Shown here: piece after piece, positions 24,684-60,896 of the stretch | How the letters are laid out: every line of letters starts with the position of its first letter | How positions within the stretch are numbered: position 1 is the stretch's first letter | DNA from: Ruoffia tabacinasalis | GTDB taxonomy: Bacteria > Bacillota > Bacilli > Lactobacillales > Aerococcaceae | DNA length: 64,000 nucleotides | NCBI RefSeq assembly: GCF_005864045.1 | Contig: NZ_VBSP01000003.1 | Coordinates: forward strand, 1-64,000 | Reading direction: 5' to 3' | The notes under the pieces: generated by a model | The model's input: only the letters and a program-made list of their open reading frames with translations | Told to the model about the DNA's origin: nothing | Databases searched by the model: none | Position numbers and translations under genes: made by a program

Positions 24684-25640
24684 TTAACGTCTTTGTTTAC
24701 CTTCGTTACGGCGTTTCTTATTGGAAGTATTGACATTGTTCTTCGTCGGCACTAAGCGTTTTGAATCACCTTTGTTCGTATTTTTAGCTTTAGTTGCTTT
24801 TTTACGAGGTGTACGTTTAACATGTGCGTATTTCTCAGCTTCAGCTTCCATATCTTTTTCAATTCTTGGTCTTACCACTTTATTCATATAAAGTTGTTGG
24901 AAGATTGCGAACACACCACCGGTTAAGAAGTAAATTCCTAATCCAGCTGCGGAAGCATAAGTAATCCAACCAATCATTAGCGGATTCATTAACATCATTG
25001 TACGCGATGTTTGTTGCGCTTGAGGGTTATCAGATTGAGGCGTATTTTTCTGCATCATCCAGCCTTGTAGTGCATAAAGTAGAACAACACCAATTACAAG
25101 TGGAATATTTTGCTCACCTAAGTTAATACCTAAGAAGTTACTTCTTAAGATTTCTGGAGACGAACGAATCGCAGTATATACAGCAGAAATAATAGGCATT
25201 TGGATTAGTAGTGGTAGACATCCTGCTAAACCACCAAACATATTAATATCATATTTCTTATACACTTGCATAAGTTCTTGTTGTAACGCTGCTTTTTCAT
25301 TTTGATCGCTTGTTTCTTCCATTTCAGCATTGATTTCATCAATCTCAGGCTGAGCGATCTTCATTTTTGATTGACTAATCATTGAATTTTTAGTCATATT
25401 TACTGATGATGGCATCATAAGTAATCGTGTGATGATTGTAATAATTATGATTGCTACCCCGTAGCTACCGCCGAAAATCCCAGCAATCCAGTCCATTAGA
25501 GTGGATGCAGGTCGACCAATATACTCGTAAACCCATCCAGAAGGGTTACCAGCACTATCGTAAGAGACACAGCCGGACATAACTAGTATAACAACAGCTA
25601 GTAGTCCAATAATTTTTATCCATTTTTGCTTCTTTTTCAT
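24684..25640 (-). CDS. yidC: Membrane protein insertase YidC (lipoprotein, YidC2/OxaA2 type)
   Basis: 318 residues. A lipoprotein signal ends in VMSGC, so the mature N-terminus is lipid-anchored. Five membrane segments of the YidC/Oxa1 core follow, with the hydrophilic-groove Arg in ITRLLMMPSS and the coiled cytoplasmic loop (about 85-125). The C-terminus (about 275-318) is very rich in Lys and Arg, as in YidC2-type proteins that contact ribosomes. It inserts membrane proteins alone or with SecYEG. A TTGAAT-17-TATTAT promoter lies at 25676-25704. The jag/rnpA partners of YidC1 loci are absent, fitting a second copy. Confidence 0.93.
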   Translation of the reverse strand: MKKKQKWIKIIGLLAVVILVMSGCVSYDSAGNPSGWVYEYIGRPASTLMDWIAGIFGGSYGVAIIIITIITRLLMMPSSVNMTKNSMISQSKMKIAQPEIDEINAEMEETSDQNEKAALQQELMQVYKKYDINMFGGLAGCLPLLIQMPIISAVYTAIRSSPEILRSNFLGINLGEQNIPLVIGVVLLYALQGWMMQKNTPQSDNPQAQQTSRTMMLMNPLMIGWITYASAAGLGIYFLTGGVFAIFQQLYMNKVVRPRIEKDMEAEAEKYAHVKRTPRKKATKAKNTNKGDSKRLVPTKNNVNTSNKKRRNEGKQRR

Positions 25641-25735: not shown

Positions 25736-26011
25736 TTAATATACTACAGAAAAATCATCATAAACTTTATCGAGTTGCAAATCGTGGATCTCGACATCTT
25801 TAATTTTCATAAATTGATGTTGAGGTTGTTTGATTCGCTCAACCATCTTATTCAAAGTATCATCATCTGTTTGAGCGATAATTTTGACATCACCGTCAGA
25901 CAAATTTCTTACTGTTCCTTTAATATTAAGATCTTTTGCAATTTGGCTTACATAATTTCTAAAGCCAACACCTTGTACGCGTCCTGATACGATTAATTCA
26001 GTTGTTTTCAT
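25736..26011 (-). CDS. Acylphosphatase
   Basis: 91 residues from ATG 26011, where AAAGGGAG is well placed; the open frame continues to 26200 without a ribosome site. It hydrolyses acyl phosphates. The signature VSGRVQGVGFRNYVSQIA holds the catalytic Arg; the second signature is GTVRNLSDGDVKIIAQ with the catalytic Asn. Small cytoplasmic enzyme. It is transcribed towards yidC and divergent from ftsK; acylphosphatase next to yidC is common in lactic acid bacteria. Confidence 0.93.
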   Translation of the reverse strand: MKTTELIVSGRVQGVGFRNYVSQIAKDLNIKGTVRNLSDGDVKIIAQTDDDTLNKMVERIKQPQHQFMKIKDVEIHDLQLDKVYDDFSVVY

Positions 26012-26142
26012 GTAATCGCTCCCTTTCTTTTGTTTACATTGTAACACAGAATTTCTAATAAAGAATTCGATATATCCACCATTCAATGCTATAATTAGTG
26101 TTGCGTAAAGTTTAGCGAATAGAAGAACGAGGAGGATGGTCC

Positions 26143-28905
26143 ATGACGAAAAAGAAGAAAGCTCAAACAAAAAAGTCAGAGCAAATAAGTGATCATTCAA
26201 AACATTATATATATTTAATTATAGGCTTGATTGTCGCTTTTATATCGATAATAGCCTTATTTAATTGGGGATTTTTTGGTTCACTTGTCTTAAATACATT
26301 TCGACTGTTTGTCGGTGAAGCTTATGATTTATTATTAGTTGGAATTGCTTTTATTGGATTAGCAATGTTTGTGAAGCGTTCCATTGTTAATATCCCCGCA
26401 TTAAAATTAATGGGTTCATTGTTTATATTAATAGCGATGACGACATTACTTCATTTTAATCAATTTTATCCTTTAGAACCTTTACCTGATTCCATTTTTG
26501 CGATTACTTTTGATATTTTCAAAAATGAATTTGTAACTGGTCAAAACCAAGTCAGTCTTGGTGGTGGGATGCTCGGTGCAGTTTTTTATGCGAGTTTTGG
26601 TTATTTATTTGGACAATGGGGAACATATTTATTAGTAGGTATTGTGTTCTTTATTGGGCTTTTTATGACTACAGGTGTGACTTTTGAAGCATTTATTAAT
26701 GCAATTAAACACTTTTTCATTTTAATATATGGAGGATTTAAACGAGTTGGAAACACAATTAGTGAAGTTCGTTCTACATATAAAGAATCTTTCGTAGAAG
26801 AAGAGGAAATTACTGAAGACATCGAACCTGTGGTTGATGAAGCTATTTATGAACAAAATGATTCATTTAATGAATATGAGGATTACTCAAGAGAAGAAGT
26901 GTCTTATGTAAGTAAGCAAAGACCTCAGAGAAGAGGTTTATTTGATAAAATAAAGAACAAATTTAATGTCAACGATGCTGAGGAAACGACCGAACAGTGG
27001 CAACCCCGTTATCAGCCTTCCATTAAAGTAGATAAAGAACCTAGTTGGGAAGTATATGATGATACGGATGCACTAGCGTCAACAGCAGCTAGTGAACGTG
27101 CAAGACTAGAACGAGATAAAGATTTAGTCTTAGATTTAGATTATTTTGACCAAATTTCTAATCATACAAAAGAAGATGAGTCAGAATCAGTTGTTGATGT
27201 GCCACAGCAACCTAATTATGATTACAATAATCCATCTGATTGGGATGCGCCAACGACTTATGAAGAAGAATCTTATAACAACGTAGAAATTGATGCAGAT
27301 GATGATATATTGGCTCATGAGATTGCGGATACCTTACCTGAAGAACCGACAAACCAAGAAACGGTTCAACACTCTAATGCCGCTCATTGGCAACAACAAT
27401 CTGATAATATCCAAAACACAACTGATAATGATTTAGATTCTGTTCTTGAACAAAGCAGTAAAGCCAATCCAACTCAGAAAAAAGAATCGAAAAAAAGTAA
27501 GCATAAAAGGTATAAATTACCATCAAAAAACTTATTAACGAAAATTCCGCCGGTGGATCAATCTGAAGAATACAAACGGATTAATGAAAACATCGATAAA
27601 CTTGAAAGAACATTTAAAAGTTTTGGTGTAGATGCTAAAGTTGTTAAAGCAAATTTAGGACCATCGGTTACGAAATATGAAATTGAACCAGCTATTGGTG
27701 TGAAAGTAAGTAAAATTGTTTCATTATCTGATGATATTGCATTATCACTCGCAGCCAGAGATATTCGTATGGAAGCTCCCATTCCAGGCAAATCATTAAT
27801 TGGGATAGAAGTACCAAATACTCAAGTGAGCCCAGTTTCTTTTTGGGAAATTGTAGATGCGGCCTTAAAATCACCAAATCTTTTAGAAGTGCCTTTAGGA
27901 CGAGATATATCAGGATCAGTGTGTACAGCCGATTTAACTAAAATGCCTCACTTACTAATTGCTGGTGCGACGGGGAGTGGTAAATCAGTGGGAATGAATG
28001 TTATTATTGCTTCTTTATTAATGAAGGCAAAACCTAATGAAGTGAAATTCTTAATGATTGACCCTAAAAAAGTTGAGTTGACTATGTATAATGAATTACC
28101 TCATCTTTTATCTCCGGTAGTTACTAACCCGAGAAAAGCGGCTCAAGCATTAAACAATGTAGTCCAAGAGATGGAACATCGTTATGAATTATTTGCAGCA
28201 TCTGGTGTAAGAAACGTAGATAGCTATAATGACTATATTGAAGAGCAAAACAAAAATGAAGGAACTGGCTATGAAAGACTGCCAAAAATTGTGGTCTTTA
28301 TTGACGAGTTAGCAGACTTAATGCTAGTAGCTAGTAATGAAGTAGAGAATGCGATTATTCGCTTAGCTCAAATGGCACGTGCTGCTGGTATACATATGAT
28401 TATCGCAACTCAAAGACCATCCGTAGATGTTATCACAGGGATTATAAAAGCAAATGTGCCATCAAGGTTAGCCTTTGCGGTTTCAAGTGGGACTGATTCG
28501 AGAACAATCTTAGATTCAAACGGTGCTGAGAAGTTACTTGGTAGAGGAGATATGCTATTCCAACCAATGGGTATGAATAAACCATTACGTGTTCAAGGTG
28601 GATATATTTCTGATGCTGAAGTAGAGCGTATTACAGACTTTATCAAAGATCAAAGTGAGCCTGATTATGATGAAGCGATTGTTGTGACAGATGAAAGTCT
28701 TGAAAAAGCTAATGCATCTGATGACGAATACTTTGAAGATGCGGTTGCACTTATTAAAGAACAAGAAACAATCAGTATCTCTCAATTACAAAGAAGATTT
28801 AGAATTGGTTATAATCGAGCAGCGAGATTAATCGATGATATGGAAGCTTTAGGTTTAGTAAGTGAACCTGATGGAAGTAAACCAAGACAAGTCTTAATAG
28901 ATTAA
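26143..28905 (+). CDS. ftsK: DNA translocase FtsK/SpoIIIE
   Basis: 920 residues. Four or five N-terminal membrane helices (about 25-190), a long acidic, Gln/Asn-rich linker (about 210-450), then the RecA-like motor: alpha/beta parts with Walker A G608-ATGSGK-S615, Walker [12 protein letters not shown], and the C-terminal winged gamma domain that reads polarity motifs (about 855-920, [20 protein letters not shown]). It pumps chromosome DNA through the closing septum and activates XerCD; xerD is also in the window. GAGGAGG precedes the start. Confidence 0.95.
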
Positions 28906-28910
28906 AATTA

Positions 28911-28951
28911 AAATGCCTAGTAGATCAATGTTTACTACTAGGCATTTTTTT
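28911..28951 (+). terminator. Terminator after ftsK
   Basis: AAATGCCTAGTAG (28911-28923) pairs exactly with CTACTAGGCATTT (28935-28947), followed by more T. Confidence 0.9.
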
Positions 28952-29045
28952 ATTTTGAGCGAATTTTTTATGGAAATGTTGTTAAATCAATGATTGTAAA
29001 AGGATAAAAATATTTGAAAAATTAAAAGAAACATAATCGCTTACA

Positions 29046-29074
29046 TTGTCTTTTTGACAAGCTTACGGTATAAT
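29046..29074 (+). promoter_or_regulatory. Promoter of the first BMP gene
   Basis: TTGTCT (29046-29051), 17-base spacer, TATAAT (29069-29074), 31 bases before the start codon. Confidence 0.75.
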
Positions 29075-29104
29075 CTTAAATGAATAAAAAAGGAGGAAGA
29101 TTGA

Positions 29105-30130
29105 ATGAAAAAATTACTTAAATTATCTGCCGTAGCATTAATGGCTACAGGAGTTGCATTACCAACGATGGTGGCAGCGCAAGAAGAGTTCTCTGCTATT
29201 ATGATTACGGATATTGGTGGGGTGGATGACAAATCATTTAACCAATCAGCATGGGAAGGATTAACTGCATGGGGTGAAGAGCACGGTAAAGAACGTGGAG
29301 TGAGTGGATATGACTACTTACAATCAAACAGTGACTCAGACTTTGTTACAAACATTAACACGGCTTTATCATCAAACTTTGATATAATTTTCGGTATTGG
29401 ATTTAAATTAGAGCCAGCGATTAATGATATGGCTCAACAATATCCAGATCGTCATTTCGCAATCGTTGATGCTGTTGTAGACCAACCAAATGTGGCTTCA
29501 TTAAACTTTAAAGACCATGAAGCAGCATTCTTAGCTGGTGTCGCAGCTGCATTAACAACTGAAACAGATCACCTAGGTTTTGTTGGTGGAGTTGAAGGGG
29601 TTGTTATTGACCGCTTTGAAGCGGGATTCGTTGCAGGAGCACAAGCAATTAACCCAGATATCGAATTTTCTGTTGAATACGCAGGTAGCTTCGGTGATGC
29701 TTCACGAGGTAAACAAATTGCAGCAGCAATGTACGCGAACGATGCAGATATTATCTTCCATGCATCTGGAGATACAGGGAATGGAGTATTCTCAGAGGCA
29801 AAAGACTTAGTAACAAACGACCCTTCACGTAATTTATGGGTAATCGGGGTTGACCGTGACCAAGCAGAAGAAGGTATCGTAACTGTTGATGGAGAAGAAC
29901 GCCACTTAACATTAACTTCTACATTAAAACAAGTTGGAGACGCAGTGAAACAATTCGCTGAGCAAACTGAAGCCGATGGCTTTACCGCTGGTAACACTGT
30001 CTATGGTTTAGCAGACGGTGGAGTTGAATTAACTGAAGGTCAATTAACTGACGAAGTTAAAGAAACAATTGAAGAATACCGTCAACAAATTGTTAATGGG
30101 GAAATTGAAGTTCCAGAAACGCCAGAATAA
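29105..30130 (+). CDS. BMP-family nucleoside-binding protein, copy 1 (no lipobox)
   Basis: 341 residues; substrate-binding protein of the Bmp/PnrA/Med family. The family pattern is ITDIGGVDDKSFNQSAWEGL near the start, then VDQPNVASLNF, GGVEGVVIDRFEAGF and SGDTGNGVFSEAKD. It should capture nucleosides for the ABC system encoded downstream. The signal peptide ends VAA-QEE, a signal peptidase I type site. The whole protein has no cysteine, so it cannot be a lipoprotein, whereas Gram-positive BMP proteins normally are. It has its own promoter. Codon choice looks well adapted, suggesting high expression. Confidence 0.88.
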   Translation: MKKLLKLSAVALMATGVALPTMVAAQEEFSAIMITDIGGVDDKSFNQSAWEGLTAWGEEHGKERGVSGYDYLQSNSDSDFVTNINTALSSNFDIIFGIGFKLEPAINDMAQQYPDRHFAIVDAVVDQPNVASLNFKDHEAAFLAGVAAALTTETDHLGFVGGVEGVVIDRFEAGFVAGAQAINPDIEFSVEYAGSFGDASRGKQIAAAMYANDADIIFHASGDTGNGVFSEAKDLVTNDPSRNLWVIGVDRDQAEEGIVTVDGEERHLTLTSTLKQVGDAVKQFAEQTEADGFTAGNTVYGLADGGVELTEGQLTDEVKETIEEYRQQIVNGEIEVPETPE

Positions 30131-30176
30131 AACACGAACAATAACGGCATAATTAAAGAGATAATACGTCAAACTA

Positions 30177-30205
30177 TTGAGAGCTCGTTTTTTATAACCT
30201 ATAAT
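30177..30205 (+). promoter_or_regulatory. Promoter of the second BMP gene
   Basis: TTGAGA (30177-30182), 17-base spacer, TATAAT (30200-30205), 33 bases ahead of the TTG start. The second copy can therefore be transcribed on its own. Confidence 0.75.
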
Positions 30206-30237
30206 ACCTTTAGACATTAACTAAGGGAGGAAATACA

Positions 30238-31266
30238 TTGAACAAATTACTTAAATTATCAACAATTACTTTACTTGCCGGAGGATTAGCTTCTCCAATT
30301 TTTGCTAACGCACAAGAAGATTTTAGTGCAATCATGATTACTGACCAAGGTGGGGTAGATGATAAATCATTTAACCAATCTGCATGGGAAGGTTTACAAC
30401 TATGGGGAGAAGAGAATGGCCTAGAAAGAGGTACTTCTGGTTTTGATTATTTAGAATCAGCAACTGACTCAGACTACATTACTAACTTAAACACGGCGGT
30501 TCAAAGTGGTTTTGATTTAATTTATGGAGTAGGGTTCAAATTAGAAGCAGCGATTAATGATATTGCTCAACAATATCCAGATCAACAGTTTGCGATTATT
30601 GACTCTGTAGTGGACCAACCAAATGTTGCTTCTATTAATTTCCAAGACAATGAAGCAGCTTTTCTAGCTGGTGTTGCTGCAGCTTCTACAACTGAAACAA
30701 ATAAAATTGGATTTATTGGTGGAGTTGAAGGTGTTGTCATTGACCGTTTCGAAGCTGGCTTTGTAGCTGGTGCTGAAACTGTAAATCCTGACGTTGAAAT
30801 TACAATTGAATATGTTGGAAGCTTTGCTGACGCACCACGTGGTCGTCAAATAGCAGCAGCTATGTATGCAGCTGATACTGATATTATTTTCCAAGCAGCT
30901 GGAGATTCAGGTAACGGAGTCTTCTCAGAAGCAAAAGACTTAGTTTCTGCTGACCCAGACCGTAATATTTGGGTTATCGGTGCAGACATGGATCAAGACG
31001 CTGAGGGGATCATTGAAATCGATGGAGAAGAACGTGGATTAACTTTAACTTCTACGTTAAAACAAATCGGTGATTCGATTCAATTATTTACAAACGAAAC
31101 AAAAGCAGGTAATTTCGAAGCTGGAACACATGTCTTTGGATTAGCTGATGGTGGAGTTGACTTAGCTGAAGGAAATCTTTCAGAAGAAGTTCTAACAACA
31201 GTAAATGATTACCGTCAACAAATTATTGATGGTGAAATTGAAGTCCCAGAAACTCCTGAAAACTAA
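30238..31266 (+). CDS. BMP-family nucleoside-binding protein, copy 2 (no lipobox)
   Basis: 342 residues, starting at TTG behind GGGAGGAAA. It aligns along its full length with copy 1 just upstream, including the GGVDDKSFNQSAWEGL, VVDQPNVAS and GGVEGVVIDRFEAGF blocks and the C-terminal EIEVPETPE tail, so this is a tandem duplication. The signal peptide ends FANA-QED; again there is no cysteine and no lipid anchor. Ligand-contact loops differ (QAAGDSG against HASGDTG), so ligand preference may have diverged. It has its own promoter and a strong terminator. Confidence 0.88.
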   Translation: MNKLLKLSTITLLAGGLASPIFANAQEDFSAIMITDQGGVDDKSFNQSAWEGLQLWGEENGLERGTSGFDYLESATDSDYITNLNTAVQSGFDLIYGVGFKLEAAINDIAQQYPDQQFAIIDSVVDQPNVASINFQDNEAAFLAGVAAASTTETNKIGFIGGVEGVVIDRFEAGFVAGAETVNPDVEITIEYVGSFADAPRGRQIAAAMYAADTDIIFQAAGDSGNGVFSEAKDLVSADPDRNIWVIGADMDQDAEGIIEIDGEERGLTLTSTLKQIGDSIQLFTNETKAGNFEAGTHVFGLADGGVDLAEGNLSEEVLTTVNDYRQQIIDGEIEVPETPEN

Positions 31267-31280
31267 TAGTTTTTTAAGTA

Positions 31281-31310
31281 AAGGGCGCCTCGCGGAGGTG
31301 CCCTTTTTTT
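31281..31310 (+). terminator. Terminator after the second BMP gene
   Basis: AAGGGCGCCTC (31281-31291) and GAGGTGCCCTT (31295-31305, one G-T pair) with a 3-base loop and seven or more T. It separates the binding-protein genes from the transporter operon. Confidence 0.92.
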
Positions 31311-31402
31311 ATGAGGATTTACCATTATAGAACATGGAAAATTAAAAAACACTGTGAAATTACTAATTTGGATAAGTACAAACACTAATTTTTTTACAAA
31401 AA

Positions 31403-31494
31403 TTGCAATTATAGAATACTTTAATATGATTTTTACTATGCTTTTTTAGTATACTTGTCTATAATTATATATGATAACCGATTGCAAAATTATA
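31403..31494. repeat. Inverted and direct repeats around the nupA promoter
   Basis: AATTATAGA-ATACT (31407-31420) is inverted as AGTAT and TCTATAATT (31448-31452, 31458-31466); the right arm covers the likely -10 TATAAT (31460-31465). TTGCAATTATA (31403-31413) recurs as TTGCAAAATTATA (31482-31494). This could be an operator. The surrounding 207-base gap is otherwise AT-rich with no gene seen. Confidence 0.4.
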
Positions 31495-31517
31495 AGTATA
31501 GAATGTGAGGAGCAATT

Positions 31518-33077
31518 ATGACAGATACAAATGTACCTGTAATTGAGATGCGTGACATTTCCAAAAAATTTGGTGAGTTCTACGCGAACAAAAATATCAA
31601 TTTACAGTTGAAAAAAGGTGAAATTCATGCCTTATTAGGGGAGAACGGAGCAGGAAAATCAACATTAATGAATATTCTCTCTGGTTTATTAGAACCTACA
31701 TCAGGTGATATTTACATGGGAGGAGAAGTTGTTCAAATTGATTCTCCAACCAAAGCCAACCAACTTGGAATCGGGATGGTTCACCAACATTTTATGTTGA
31801 TTGATGCTTTTATGGTCGTTGAAAACATTATATTGGGTGAAGAACCTGTCTCAGGTCTAACAATTGATAAAGGAACAGCTCAGAAAAAAATCGAAGAAAT
31901 TTCTCAACAATATGGTTTGAGTGTCGATCCTTCAGCTCGTATTTCATCTATTAGTGTAGGAATGCAACAGCGTGTTGAGATTCTTAAAGTGCTTTATCGT
32001 GGGGCAGACATTTTGATTTTTGATGAGCCGACTGCGTCACTAACGCCTCAAGAAGTGACAGATTTAATGATAACATTGCGTAAATTAGCAGAAGAAGGTA
32101 AGTCAATTATTATCATCACACATAAGTTAGATGAAATTAAACAAGTTGCCGATCGCTGTACTGTTATTCGTCGTGGTCAATCAATTGATACCGTTGATGT
32201 AGCAACAACAACATCTAATGAGTTAGCTGATATGATGGTTGGTCGTGCGGTGTCATTTACTACTGAAAAAACACCTGCAAATCCATCGGATACTATTATA
32301 GATATCAAATCACTTAATGTATTGGATGAACGCGGTATAAAAGCGGTTGAGGATCTCTCATTTAATGTTCGCAAAGGTGAAATTGTTGGTATTGCGGGGA
32401 TTGATGGGAATGGTCAATCAGAATTAATTCTTGCAATGACAGGATTAATGCCAGTTGAGTCAGGTCAAATTCTCTTCGAAGGGGAAGATATTACAAGCCT
32501 TTCACCGAGAGATGTGAATGAAAGTGGCATTGCACATATTCCAGAAGACCGTCATAAGTATGGTTTAATTCTAGATATGCAATTAGAAAGTAATATGGTA
32601 TTAAAAAACTATTACGCGAAACCTTATTCAAGTAATGGATTATTACATTTTAGTAAAATTGAACAACAAGCGAGAAAATTAATTGAAACTTACGATGTAA
32701 GAACAACTTCTGAGAAAGCTTTTGCTAGATCACTATCTGGAGGTAATCAACAGAAAGCGATTATTGCTAGAGAAATAGATAGTGATCCTAAATTCTTAAT
32801 TGCAGCAAACCCAACCCGTGGATTAGATGTGGGAGCGATTGAATTTATTCATAAAGAATTAATTAACGAACGTGATAAAGATAAAGGTGTTCTATTAATG
32901 AGTTTCGAACTTGATGAGATATTAAATGTAACTGATAGAGTTCTAGTCATGTTTGATGGAAAGATTGTTGCGGACATTCCAACACATGAAACAAATGAAC
33001 GTGAGTTAGGATTGATGATGGCGGGAACACCATTTTCAGAAATTGAAGCGGCTCGTCAGGAAGGAAGTGTTGTATAG
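31518..33077 (+). CDS. nupA: Nucleoside ABC transporter ATP-binding protein (two NBDs)
   Basis: 519 residues made of two ABC domains in tandem, as in sugar/nucleoside-type importers (YufO, NupA). The first has Walker A GENGAGKST (41-49), signature SVGMQQRVEI and Walker B ILIFDEPTA. In the second the Walker A is degenerate (GIDGNGQS, 294-301, no Lys), with signature LSGGNQQKAI; such asymmetry is normal in this family. It powers uptake with the two permeases that follow and overlap. Start ATG behind GTGAGGAG. Confidence 0.93.
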   Translation: MTDTNVPVIEMRDISKKFGEFYANKNINLQLKKGEIHALLGENGAGKSTLMNILSGLLEPTSGDIYMGGEVVQIDSPTKANQLGIGMVHQHFMLIDAFMVVENIILGEEPVSGLTIDKGTAQKKIEEISQQYGLSVDPSARISSISVGMQQRVEILKVLYRGADILIFDEPTASLTPQEVTDLMITLRKLAEEGKSIIIITHKLDEIKQVADRCTVIRRGQSIDTVDVATTTSNELADMMVGRAVSFTTEKTPANPSDTIIDIKSLNVLDERGIKAVEDLSFNVRKGEIVGIAGIDGNGQSELILAMTGLMPVESGQILFEGEDITSLSPRDVNESGIAHIPEDRHKYGLILDMQLESNMVLKNYYAKPYSSNGLLHFSKIEQQARKLIETYDVRTTSEKAFARSLSGGNQQKAIIAREIDSDPKFLIAANPTRGLDVGAIEFIHKELINERDKDKGVLLMSFELDEILNVTDRVLVMFDGKIVADIPTHETNERELGLMMAGTPFSEIEAARQEGSVV

Positions 33078-34162
33078 TGAAGTCAAATATTAGACAAATT
33101 ATGGTCCCATTACTATCAATCGTTATTGGACTTGTCTTTGGTGCAATTATTATGTTGGTTTTTGGTTATAATCCAATTGAAGGTTATAAAGCTTTACTTA
33201 CAGGAGCATTAGGAAATCCATTTAATATTGGACAAACAATTCGTGCAGCAACTCCCTTAATCTTTACTGGTTTAGGTTTTGCGGTAGCTTATACGGCTGG
33301 ATTCTTTAATATTGGTTTAGCTGGTCAAGCCTTAGCAGGTTGGTTAGTATCAGTATGGATTGGTATATCATTACCTGATTCACCAGGTTGGCTTGTCTTA
33401 CCGCTTGCAATACTTGGTGGAACGATTGCTGGTGCTTTATGGGCTGGAATTGCCGGAGTTTTAAAAGCATTCTTTGATACCAGTGAAGTTATCGTAACAA
33501 TTATGTTAAACTATGTAGCCATTTATATTTCTGATCATATTATTCGTAACGTAATCACTGATCGCGCAGATGCAACGCCTTTCGTTGGGGAGAATGCATC
33601 ATTACGCTTGCAATGGTTAACTGATTTAACAAACGGGTCAACGATTCATGGTGGTATTTTCTTAGCCTTAATCTTTGCAGTTCTTGTATCAATTTTACTT
33701 CAAAGAACAACCGTTGGTTTCGAGTTGAGATCCGTTGGTTTCAATAAGCATGCTGCGAATTACGCAGGTATGAATGCGAAACGTAATATTATTTTAGCAA
33801 TGTTATTATCTGGAGGATTAGCTGGATTAGGTGGAGTTATGAACGGCTTAGGCGAGTTTAGAAACGTCTTCTTAACGAACGGTGTTGCTCCAGCCATTGG
33901 TTTTGATGGACTTGCTGTAGCATTATTAGGTGGTCTGAATCCAATCGGAATTATCTTTGCAAGTCTTTTATTTGGTGGGTTAAAAACAGGTGGAACGATT
34001 ATGCCACTTATGGCAGGGGTTCCTTCTGAAATTGTTGATATTGCAACGGCGGCAATTATCTTCTTCGTAGGTGCTAACTATGTTATTACTTATTTTATGG
34101 ATCGTCGTGAGAAATCTAAATTAAGTAATACAGAAGTGATTGTACAAGGAGGAGATGAGTAA
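33077..34162 (+). CDS. nupB: Nucleoside ABC transporter permease 1
   Basis: 361 residues starting at GTG that overlaps the previous stop by one base. About ten hydrophobic helices; the family segment ELRSVGFNKHAANYAGMNAKR is the cytoplasmic coupling loop, followed by SGGLAGLGGVMNGLG. It belongs to the BPD_transp_2 (LivH/YufP) family. With NupC it forms the membrane channel for nucleosides delivered by the BMP proteins. It is translationally coupled on both sides. Confidence 0.93.
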   Translation: MKSNIRQIMVPLLSIVIGLVFGAIIMLVFGYNPIEGYKALLTGALGNPFNIGQTIRAATPLIFTGLGFAVAYTAGFFNIGLAGQALAGWLVSVWIGISLPDSPGWLVLPLAILGGTIAGALWAGIAGVLKAFFDTSEVIVTIMLNYVAIYISDHIIRNVITDRADATPFVGENASLRLQWLTDLTNGSTIHGGIFLALIFAVLVSILLQRTTVGFELRSVGFNKHAANYAGMNAKRNIILAMLLSGGLAGLGGVMNGLGEFRNVFLTNGVAPAIGFDGLAVALLGGLNPIGIIFASLLFGGLKTGGTIMPLMAGVPSEIVDIATAAIIFFVGANYVITYFMDRREKSKLSNTEVIVQGGDE

Positions 34163-35115
34163 TGGTCAATTTATTAGCATTAATTGTATCATCTACATTA
34201 GTATACTCAGCCCCGTTAATATTTACGGCGATCGGTGGAGTATTTTCTGAACGAAGTGGTATTGTAAACGTTGGTTTGGAAGGTATTATGGTGATGGGAG
34301 CTTTCAGTTCCGTAGTTTTCAACCTATTTTATGCTGAAACATTTGGATCTTGGACTCCTTGGCTTGGTTTATTGGTTGGAGCCCTTGCGGGTGTATTCAT
34401 TGCTGCAGTCCATGCTTTAGCAACAGTAAATTTAAGAGCAGATCATATTATTTCAGGTACAGTTGTTAACTTAGCTGCTCCAGCTTTAGCTGTGTTCTTA
34501 ACACGAGTTTTATTTGAACAAAGAGGACAAACAGACATTATTCGCGAATCATTTGGGTATTTTAATTTCCCACTTTTAAGTGATATCCCTGTTATTGGAC
34601 GTATTTTCTTCCAATCAACTTCTTTACCAGCTTATGTAGGTATTATTGTTGCCTTTATCTGTTGGTTCTTCTTAGCGAGAACTCGCTTTGGATTAAGAAT
34701 CCGAGCGGTTGGTGAGAATCCTCAAGCAGCAGATACAATGGGAATTAATGTTTACGCAATGAAATACGCTGGTGTACTACTTTCAGGTGTATTCGGTGGA
34801 ATTGGGGGAGCGGTATTATCTCAATCAATTTCATTAAACTTCTCTGTTTCTACTATTGCAGGACAAGGGTTTATGGCGATGGCGGCAATGATTTTTGGTA
34901 AATGGAATCCAGTAGGAGCTATGTTAGCTGCGATATTCTTTGGTTTTGCTCAAAGTTTATCAGTGGTTGGTTCTCAAATACCATTCATTGAATCAATCGA
35001 TCCAGTATACTTACAAATCGCACCTTACATTATTACAATTATTGTACTTGTGAGCTTTGTAGGTAAAGCATCTGGTCCAGCTGCTAATGGTAAAACTTAT
35101 ATTAAATCTAAATAA
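34162..35115 (+). CDS. nupC: Nucleoside ABC transporter permease 2
   Basis: 317 residues; ATG overlaps the nupB stop by one base. It opens with ERSGIVNVGLEGIMVMGA, typical of YufQ/NupC permeases, and carries the coupling loop LRIRAVGENPQAADTMGINV and SGVFGGIGGAVLSQS. About eight or nine membrane helices. It ends the operon at the hairpin 35123-35156. The order ATPase, permease, permease matches Lactococcus nupABC and Bacillus yufOPQ. Confidence 0.93.
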   Translation: MVNLLALIVSSTLVYSAPLIFTAIGGVFSERSGIVNVGLEGIMVMGAFSSVVFNLFYAETFGSWTPWLGLLVGALAGVFIAAVHALATVNLRADHIISGTVVNLAAPALAVFLTRVLFEQRGQTDIIRESFGYFNFPLLSDIPVIGRIFFQSTSLPAYVGIIVAFICWFFLARTRFGLRIRAVGENPQAADTMGINVYAMKYAGVLLSGVFGGIGGAVLSQSISLNFSVSTIAGQGFMAMAAMIFGKWNPVGAMLAAIFFGFAQSLSVVGSQIPFIESIDPVYLQIAPYIITIIVLVSFVGKASGPAANGKTYIKSK

Positions 35116-58899: not shown

Positions 58900-58911
58900 A
58901 GGAGTAAAAAT

Positions 58912-60081
58912 ATGACATTTGATAGAATACATTTATTAGTTATGGACTCAGTAGGTATTGGAGAAGCAGCAGACGCCAAAGAATTTGGTGATGTTGGCTC
59001 AAATACTTTAGGTAATATTGCAAACACGGTTGGTTTAAAATTACCAAACTTAACAAAAATGGGGTTAGGTAATATAGCGCCACTTAAAGGCATCGATCCA
59101 GTTGAAAACTCTACTGCGTATTTTACTAAATTGGAAGAAGTATCTGCAGGTAAAGATACAATGACTGGACATTGGGAAATCATGGGTCTTCGTATTGACC
59201 AACCATTCCGAGTGTTTCCGGACGGCTTCCCAGATGAATTGATTGAGAAGATTGAAACTTTTTCTGGGCGCAAAATTATCGGGAATAAACCAGCGTCTGG
59301 AACTGAAATTTTAGATGAATTAGGGCAACACCAAATTGAAACAGGTGATTTAATTGTCTACACATCAGCGGACTCGGTTCTACAAATTGCCGCTCATGAA
59401 GAAGTAATTCCATTAGAAGAATTATACAAAATTTGTGAGTACGCAAGAGAAATTACTTTAGAAGATCCTTATATGATTGGTCGAATTATTGCACGTCCAT
59501 ATCTAGGTGAAGAGGGTAATTTTGAAAGAACGAGTAATAGACATGATTACGCGTTAAGTCCTTTTGGAAACACAACTTTAGATTACTTGAAAGACGAATC
59601 TTTTGATGTTATTTCTATTGGTAAAATCGAAGATATCTTTAACGGTCAAGGAATTACCGAAGGTCACCGAACTGAAAGTAATATGGATGGTGTTGACAAA
59701 TTAATTAAAGTGATGGATAAAGACTTTAAAGGCTTGAGCTTTACGAATCTAGTTGATTTTGACGCTAAATTCGGTCACCGTCGTAATACACAAGGATATG
59801 CAGACGCATTAGAAGATTTTGATGCACGCATTCCAGAAATGATTGACCACTTAGCAGAGAATGACTTATTAATTATTACTGCTGATCATGGAAATGATCC
59901 AACTTTCTCTGGAACCGATCATACACGTGAATATGTTCCAGTATTAGTTTATAGCAAAGCGATTAAAGAACCGAAAGAATTAGACGCAACATACTTCAGT
60001 GATATCGCTGCGACAATTTCTGCTAACTTCTCAGTGAAGCAAACTGAAGAAGGACAATCATTCTTAGACCAATTAAAATAA
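58912..60081 (+). CDS. deoB: Phosphopentomutase
   Basis: 389 residues of the alkaline-phosphatase superfamily. It interconverts ribose or deoxyribose 1- and 5-phosphates. Metal-binding [12 protein letters not shown], the phospho-acceptor Thr in [14 protein letters not shown], and [19 protein letters not shown] with Asp/His ligands are clear. It starts 12 bases after xerD with AAGGAG and sits 14 bases before the nucleoside phosphorylase, so the pair forms a nucleoside salvage unit feeding ribose 5-phosphate to central metabolism. Confidence 0.97.
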
Positions 60082-60095
60082 AAGGGGTATAAACT

Positions 60096-60896
60096 ATGTT
60101 TACAGAAGCTATTGATTATATTAAAAGTAAAGGAATCACAGAACCAAAAGTAGGCTTGATTTTAGGATCAGGTTTAGGTGATTTAGCTGATGAAATTGAA
60201 GAGTCTATTCAACTTGATTATTCAGATATTCCAAATTTCCCAGTGTCAACAGTTGAAGGACATGACGGGAAATTAGTATATGGAAAACTTGCTGGGAAAA
60301 AAGTTATCGCTTTAAAAGGACGTTTTCATTATTATGAAGGCTATGACTTAGACAAAGTAACATTCCCTGTGCGTATCTTTAAAGAATTAGGTGTTGAATC
60401 AGTTATTATTACAAACGCTGCAGGCGGAGTAAATGAATCATTTAATCCAGGTGATTTAATGATTATTACTGACCACTTGAACTTTACGGGCTCTAACCCA
60501 CTGATTGGTCAAAATATTAGCGAACATGGACCACGTTTTGTAGACATGACCGAAACATATAGTCAACGCGGTCAACAATTATTAAAAGACATTGCCAAAG
60601 ATAATGACTTCCCGATTAAAGAAGGCGTTTATACTTGGTTTACAGGACCAACATATGAAACACCTGCTGAAATAAAAGCAACACGCGTGATGGGTGGAGA
60701 TGCTGTTGGAATGTCAACTGTACCAGAAGCCATTGTTGCAAAACATTGTGGTTTAGAAGTATTTGGTATTTCTTGTATTACCAATCTAGCTGCTGGTATG
60801 CAAGCTGAATTGAATCACGAAGAAGTTGTAGAAGTTTCTACTAAAGTAAAACCAAGATTTAAATTACTTATTACAGAATTAATCAATCAAATTTAA
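60096..60896 (+). CDS. punA: Purine nucleoside phosphorylase (trimeric PNP-I type)
   Basis: 266 residues. It splits inosine or guanosine with phosphate into base and ribose 1-phosphate. Phosphate-binding GLILGSGLGDLADEI, GRFHYYEGY, NAAGGVN and substrate-binding TWFTGPTYETPAEIKA are family landmarks, with Glu and Asn contacts in SCITNLAAGM. AAGGGG precedes the ATG. With deoB upstream and the Nup/BMP importer at 29-35 kb the window encodes uptake and breakdown of purine nucleosides. Confidence 0.95.
   Translation: MFTEAIDYIKSKGITEPKVGLILGSGLGDLADEIEESIQLDYSDIPNFPVSTVEGHDGKLVYGKLAGKKVIALKGRFHYYEGYDLDKVTFPVRIFKELGVESVIITNAAGGVNESFNPGDLMIITDHLNFTGSNPLIGQNISEHGPRFVDMTETYSQRGQQLLKDIAKDNDFPIKEGVYTWFTGPTYETPAEIKATRVMGGDAVGMSTVPEAIVAKHCGLEVFGISCITNLAAGMQAELNHEEVVEVSTKVKPRFKLLITELINQI

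Follow-up and report, generated by a model that had tools for sequence, protein, structure and literature searches.

Binding proteins of ABC importers are generally held to be retained in Gram-positive bacteria, which have no outer membrane, by a lipid anchor, whereas in Gram-negatives the corresponding proteins are soluble in the periplasm, lose their signal sequence to signal peptidase I and carry no lipid. Isolated lipid-free binding proteins are nevertheless known in Gram-positives, as in the case of BspA from Lactobacillus fermentum, a basic, lipid-free cystine-binding protein held at the wall by charge. Nucleoside-binding proteins of the PnrA/BmpA type (Pfam family PF02608) are lipoproteins with a lipobox, a cysteine at the +1 position and a long linker, encoded upstream of an ATPase and two permeases. 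A review puts binding proteins at a large proportion of Gram-positive lipoproteins (PMC7530257), and deletion of lgt in the pneumococcus has been reported to markedly reduce zinc uptake and to lower the levels of several cations (PMC3404074), from which it follows that dropping the anchor carries a cost when proteins and transporters are unadapted to its absence.

We analysed a 64,000-nucleotide stretch of DNA from Ruoffia tabacinasalis (the window), a genus that NCBI taxonomy places in Aerococcaceae, Lactobacillales. Two tandem paralogues on the plus strand encode the PnrA-type nucleoside-binding proteins BMP1 (29105..30130, 341 amino acids, ATG start) and BMP2 (30238..31266, 342 amino acids, TTG start), which have the same residue at 240 of 342 aligned positions; the tandem duplicate occurs in each of the three species examined within the genus. 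PF02608 matches BMP1 and BMP2 at 245 and 250 bits, respectively, across residues 30–338 (curated cut-off 24.1). The solved structures closest to BMP1 (6yab, 6ya3 and 6y9u; E 8e-93, query residues 30–338) are entries titled 'Lipoprotein', which we take to be PnrA of Streptococcus pneumoniae. Intact NupABC-like importer genes adjoin the pair downstream on the same strand, encoding a NupA-like ATP-binding protein of 519 amino acids (31518..33077), a NupB-like permease of 361 amino acids (33077..34162) and a NupC-like permease of 317 amino acids (34162..35115), so that both the domain and the gene order are those of the PnrA/BmpA systems. Purine nucleosides are the probable ligands of BMP1 and BMP2, judging by their family, and the presence in the window of phosphopentomutase (deoB, 58900–60081) and purine nucleoside phosphorylase (60093–60896) fits nucleoside use. 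The NCBIfam label of a putative B6 ABC transporter (NF047927–NF047930) was rejected, as every subunit scored far under its curated cut-off (the BMPs reached 87 to 88 of the 400 bits required, and the other subunits 457 of 670, 158 of 400 and 145 of 465).

The two proteins differ from PnrA/BmpA lipoproteins at their N-termini. There is no cysteine anywhere in BMP1 or BMP2, and neither has the lipobox with a cysteine at +1 by which a Gram-positive lipoprotein is recognised. Each has a basic start and a hydrophobic helix, and AxA-Q closes the signal sequence, the predicted signal peptides spanning 29105–29179 in BMP1 (MVAA^QEE) and 30238–30312 in BMP2 (FANA^QED), both on the plus strand. By sequence rule these are the features of a signal peptidase I substrate, and cleavage is predicted. 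The original prediction was thus correct in the coordinates and reading of both genes and in the absence of cysteine and lipobox, and its signal peptidase I-type ends (VAA-QEE and ANA-QED) are borne out by motif. It had also asked whether a missed upstream in-frame start might supply a lipobox. None exists, since an in-frame TGA immediately adjoins the ATG of BMP1 and only eight codons, none of them for cysteine, lie between the TTG of BMP2 and the preceding stop. These stop codons refute a missed start, and with a like N-terminus found in two other species of the genus and in 14 genera, the chance that a missed start or an assembly fault conceals a lipobox is negligible. From the two sequences, the absence of lipidation of BMP1 and BMP2 is strongly supported. 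Lack of cysteine in the mature domain is by contrast not special, since it is shared by 39 of 41 lipobox-bearing BMPs and 42 of 43 lipobox-free ones; the informative point is that the +1 cysteine and the lipobox are both missing.

A promoter-like site precedes each of the two genes on the plus strand, TTGTCT-17-TATAAT before BMP1 (29046..29074; a similar sequence occurs in two relatives) and TTGAGA-17-TATAAT before BMP2 (30177..30205), a site conserved, at 17-base spacing, across the three species compared within the genus. These are the two best-scoring promoter-like matches of the region. The whole region holds 14 such matches against 9.9±3.6 in shuffled sequence, not much above chance, and it is because this total lies so near the shuffles that position and score carry the weight. 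The suggestion that the two copies have separate promoters therefore stands as regards a promoter-like site before each, but not as an oddity, since there is nothing unusual in a tandem duplicate whose copies have promoters of their own. A terminator-like hairpin lies 3′ of BMP2 (31280..31306, plus strand), and no Rfam family was found in 28850–31600. A CcpA cre-like site suspected by eye before BMP1 was dropped, as the pattern search had no match there; across the window the cre pattern gave 12 matches against 15.7 expected.

The lipoprotein pathway is presumably in use in the genus, since lgt and lspA score above curated cut-offs in all three of its genomes and a gene on the minus strand of the window encodes a YidC insertase with the lipobox VMSGC (24684..25640), a predicted lipoprotein that served as an internal control. 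One of these genomes (G001) has two lgt genes (L010 and L013) and the other two have one each; a further locus of G001 (L009) is identical letter for letter to sequence within NZ_JACAOA010000042.1 of Ruoffia halotolerans INB8. The open reading frame adjoining YidC (25736–26200, minus strand) looks acylphosphatase-like by eye.

In the window's own genome a lipobox was present in 2 of 39 intact binding proteins whose N-terminus was read. This count covers nine families, namely BMP (3), SBP_bac_1 (5), SBP_bac_3 (9), SBP_bac_5 (7), MetQ (7), ZnuA (4), NMT1 (2), ABC_sub_bind (1) and Peripla_BP_4 (1), the last three drawn from a 400 kb sample of the genome only. The loss is therefore not total, the lipobox being kept in an SBP_bac_8-type protein (L119, G000:C5:29361–30092, LAAC) and an NMT1-type protein (L151:17690–18646, LSAC). 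Set aside from the count were two broken or partial MetQ genes (L148 and L149) whose N-terminus was not read and an SBP_bac_3 gene broken by an internal stop (L131, G000:C24:20957–21643), which has a lipobox and, if counted, makes the proportion 3 of 40. All three BMP paralogues of the genome are without a lipobox. A signal census of 400 kb samples, in which both classes included false positives, serves here only as a source of named examples.

We extended the comparison to the family in the GTDB sense, searching PF02608 in all 76 genomes of its 21 genera (with a match in 69) and MetQ (PF03180) and ZnuA (PF01297) in one genome per genus, each matching in 21 of 21; across genera, these three families were the ones counted. 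Duplicates with the same last 120 residues, open reading frames shorter than 230 amino acids and matches below 70 bits were left out, and the survey omits one ZnuA (G058:C1:2353623), one MetQ (G020:C1:1473550) and one partial ZnuA (G020:C1:514741). The family falls into two sets. In 14 genera, among them Ruoffia, Falseniella, Facklamia, Abiotrophia, Globicatella, Eremococcus, Dolosicoccus, Fundicoccus, Hutsoniella and Ignavigranum with four others, a lipobox was found in none of 138 BMP, MetQ and ZnuA proteins with a readable N-terminus. By family the counts are 0/52, 0/55 and 0/33, respectively, before removal of two BMP rows whose N-terminus lies in another frame (L050, frame 4944, and L069, frame 2239). 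In the seven remaining genera 94 of 96 such proteins have a lipobox (BMP 52/53, MetQ 25/25, ZnuA 17/18), the exceptions being one BMP (L103, G023) and one ZnuA (L322, G024). Loci L272, L367 and L369 carry a lipobox. For L145, L352 and L360 the position of the start is uncertain, and no lipobox was seen in them. An AxA-type site was found, by a permissive pattern, in 134 of the 138 in-clade rows, with mostly Q, A, S or E at +1; of the four without one by script (L145, L360, L376 and L381), L376 and L381 have GHA by eye.

Several individual genes in the survey deserve mention. L050 (G026:C10) and L069 (G027:C26) are frame-broken tandem BMP copies that lie beside intact ones in two genomes of one genus (g6). 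The exceptional BMP L103 (G023:C12:131329–132234) is a divergent, lipobox-free protein in a lipobox genus, and it groups in the BMP tree with L096 of the Globicatella genus group. The exceptional ZnuA-type protein L322 (G024:C16:4482–5288) matches L307 of the window's genome (G000:C68:1686–2492) at 312 of 316 positions, although one lies outside the clade and the other inside it, in distant genera; both have an N-terminal membrane helix and no lipobox, and their near-identity looks like a recent transfer.

In named genomes, 85 BMP genes were read from the best 80 of 452 confirmed loci, and a lipobox was present in all 62 outside the clade (including those of Bacillaceae, Vagococcus, Enterococcus, Carnobacterium, Trichococcus and Granulicatella) and in none of the 23 inside it. 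These 62 genes uphold the original proposal that a BMP without lipid is out of the ordinary in Gram-positives. What did not hold is that the missing lipobox is an oddity of BMP1 and BMP2, since it is common to all readable BMPs of 14 genera and extends to MetQ and ZnuA.

An rpoB protein tree covering all 21 genera, with Rossellomorea as outgroup, places the 14 lipid-free genera behind one branch with 100/100 support, recovered in 100% of 200 bootstrap trees; as a single-gene tree, this shows the clade rather than each branch within it. Since all 14 genera sit behind this one fully supported branch, the simplest reading of counts and tree is a single loss in their common ancestor followed by vertical descent. 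Every BMP of the named loci outside the clade has a lipobox, which is why we read the change as a loss. In a tree of 103 BMP proteins, a single branch (SH-aLRT 97), set among lipobox-bearing BMPs of the same family, unites the clade's 44 PnrA-type BMPs, and it is therefore most likely, as far as this tree can tell, that the body of the protein was inherited and its N-terminus changed; replacement by lipid-free genes from outside the clade is disfavoured by the same tree. The other seven lipid-free rows fall in long-branch BMP-like subfamilies, which include L103. The tree was made by a quick method and drawn from its midpoint, and the program warned of long branches meeting.

The change at the N-terminus extends beyond the lipobox itself. 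From the lipid or cut site to a conserved D motif, lipobox BMPs have a median of 31 residues (n=41, quartiles 28–32), whereas lipid-free BMPs have a median of 12 (n=43, quartiles 10–18) and so retain much less of the flexible tether found behind the cysteine of a Gram-positive lipoprotein. Because only a membrane-bound binding protein needs such a tether, the short linker points to a free protein and against an uncleaved helix. We consider it likely, taking the explanation as a whole, that BMP1 and BMP2 serve the adjacent NupABC-like importer as ordinary PnrA-type nucleoside-binding proteins, and that they work as soluble proteins. Their predicted route is export by Sec and cleavage by signal peptidase I behind the AxA motif, which would leave the mature proteins free of lipid on the outer face of the membrane. 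In the ancestor of the 14 genera the lipobox would have been lost, once, from BMP, MetQ and ZnuA at the least, and BMP would also have lost much of the tether behind it. The soluble binding proteins would then work in the thin space under the cell wall, where the wall, as a slow diffusion barrier, and docking to the permeases most likely keep them near the transporter. An extra permease domain that might hold BMP was not seen, as permease lengths overlap between the clade and outside.

The other ways in which the proteins might be placed fare less well. The original prediction had offered, among its means of holding them, that the signal helix remains uncut and serves as a membrane stalk anchoring the protein by its N-terminus. 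The helices are hydrophobic enough for this, and two other binding proteins of the genome, L118 and L307, resemble uncleaved N-terminal anchors by eye. We nevertheless think a stalk improbable for the BMPs, given the AxA-type site that the permissive pattern finds in nearly every in-clade row and a stretch between site and domain that has shortened, the opposite of what a stalk needs; of the options first offered, docking to the transporter or loose retention remain. Nor does charge offer a ready substitute. BspA provides the precedent of a lipid-free binding protein in a Gram-positive, and BMP1 and BMP2 resemble it in this respect, but where BspA is basic and thereby wall-bound, mature BMP1 (pI 4.09, charge −41) and BMP2 (pI 4.05, the floor of the calculation script; charge −46) are strongly acidic, and the clade medians of pI 4.1–4.5 are similar to those of lipobox relatives. 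Adhesion to the wall by charge of the BspA kind is accordingly most improbable here. The lipid-free state of the clade differs from BspA also in running through at least three protein families and 14 genera.

A further possibility is that the BMPs leave the cell altogether and act in the medium or as adhesins, the transporter working alone or with some other, anchored binding protein. No anchor is visible in the sequence of BMP1 or BMP2, and the BMP–importer pairing is looser in the clade, with NupABC beside the BMP gene in 9 of 21 named loci inside it against 56 of 59 outside, where the full set is missing in three, counting the DNA examined around each locus. Of the 12 clade loci without adjoining NupABC, five are on contigs that end early and seven have about 6 kb of flank. 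Against release, no BMP paralogue of the genome has a lipobox and no anchored BMP was found that could serve the importer, whose own genes are intact and adjacent in the window. In addition, BMP was among the proteins of PBS-washed cell pellets of Globicatella sanguinis, with a biofilm/cell-pellet ratio of 0.79 in the published comparison (PMC6753514). These pellet data favour retention of BMP, though weakly, since pellets also hold unexported precursor and since some other binding proteins are biofilm-enriched: the excess in biofilm over pellets was 25-fold and 85-fold for two ZnuA-like proteins and 51-fold for one of the two OppA-like ones (PMC6753514). Growth conditions differ between the two sides of that comparison, and its biofilm samples include a supernatant fraction (PMC6753514). 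Taken together, we regard release from the cell as unlikely for BMP1 and BMP2, while the looser pairing may leave room for another role of BMP in some members of the clade.

Retention of soluble proteins beneath the wall, the reading that we prefer, invites comparison with two known situations. In the way they would work, BMP1 and BMP2 resemble Gram-negative periplasmic binding proteins, which are likewise cut by signal peptidase I (here by motif), free of lipid and with the domain beginning soon after the cut; the Gram-negative system has an outer membrane, however, whereas none is expected in this family and the wall alone would hold the protein. The lgt mutant of S. pneumoniae also presents Gram-positive binding proteins without lipid, but there, as reported, the signal peptide stays on the protein and uptake suffers (PMC3404074), whereas the genes of the clade encode AxA sites and lgt is present. 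The cost reported for that mutant counts against our reading. The original prediction had envisaged that homologues throughout the clade might prove lipid-free and anchored by a known route. All of those read are indeed lipid-free; anchoring by a known route did not emerge. On balance, and by a narrower margin of confidence, we favour the broader proposal that in this clade, which has a wall and a single membrane, nearly all ABC importers came to depend on soluble, non-lipidated binding proteins after one ancestral switch, relying either on a periplasm closed by the wall or on some shared and so far unknown means of retention.

The components of this system, PnrA proteins, signal peptidase I and Nup importers, are already known. 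What would be new is a clade-wide, multi-family loss of the lipobox placed on one branch, a pattern of which we found no description in the open-access literature searched, a body that lacks most subscription journals. In the proteins read, the loss appears general, old and cleanly bounded. A clade that has dropped the anchor from at least three families while lgt and lspA are kept (as read in one genus) offers a natural experiment on the need for the anchor and on the capacity of the sub-wall space to serve as a periplasm. Lipoproteins are a main bacterial ligand of TLR2, and loss of the lipobox may therefore bear on TLR2 recognition. It also bears on annotation. A ZnuA-like protein of G. sanguinis has been called a lipoprotein with reference to lipoprotein orthologues (PMC6753514), whereas in a genome from the Globicatella genus group (G040) the two ZnuA genes that were read are without a lipobox.

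Some smaller observations accompany these results. NupABC was absent from the flank examined at BMP loci of Facklamia, Ignavigranum and Hutsoniella (L200, L204, L206, L207, L211 and others). Three SBP_bac_3 genes of the window's genome have open frames of 982, 497 and 478 amino acids, and these long frames may be permease fusions. Finally, one BMP of Globicatella (L087, G041) carries a long acidic C-terminal tail that is absent from the other 15 aligned sequences.
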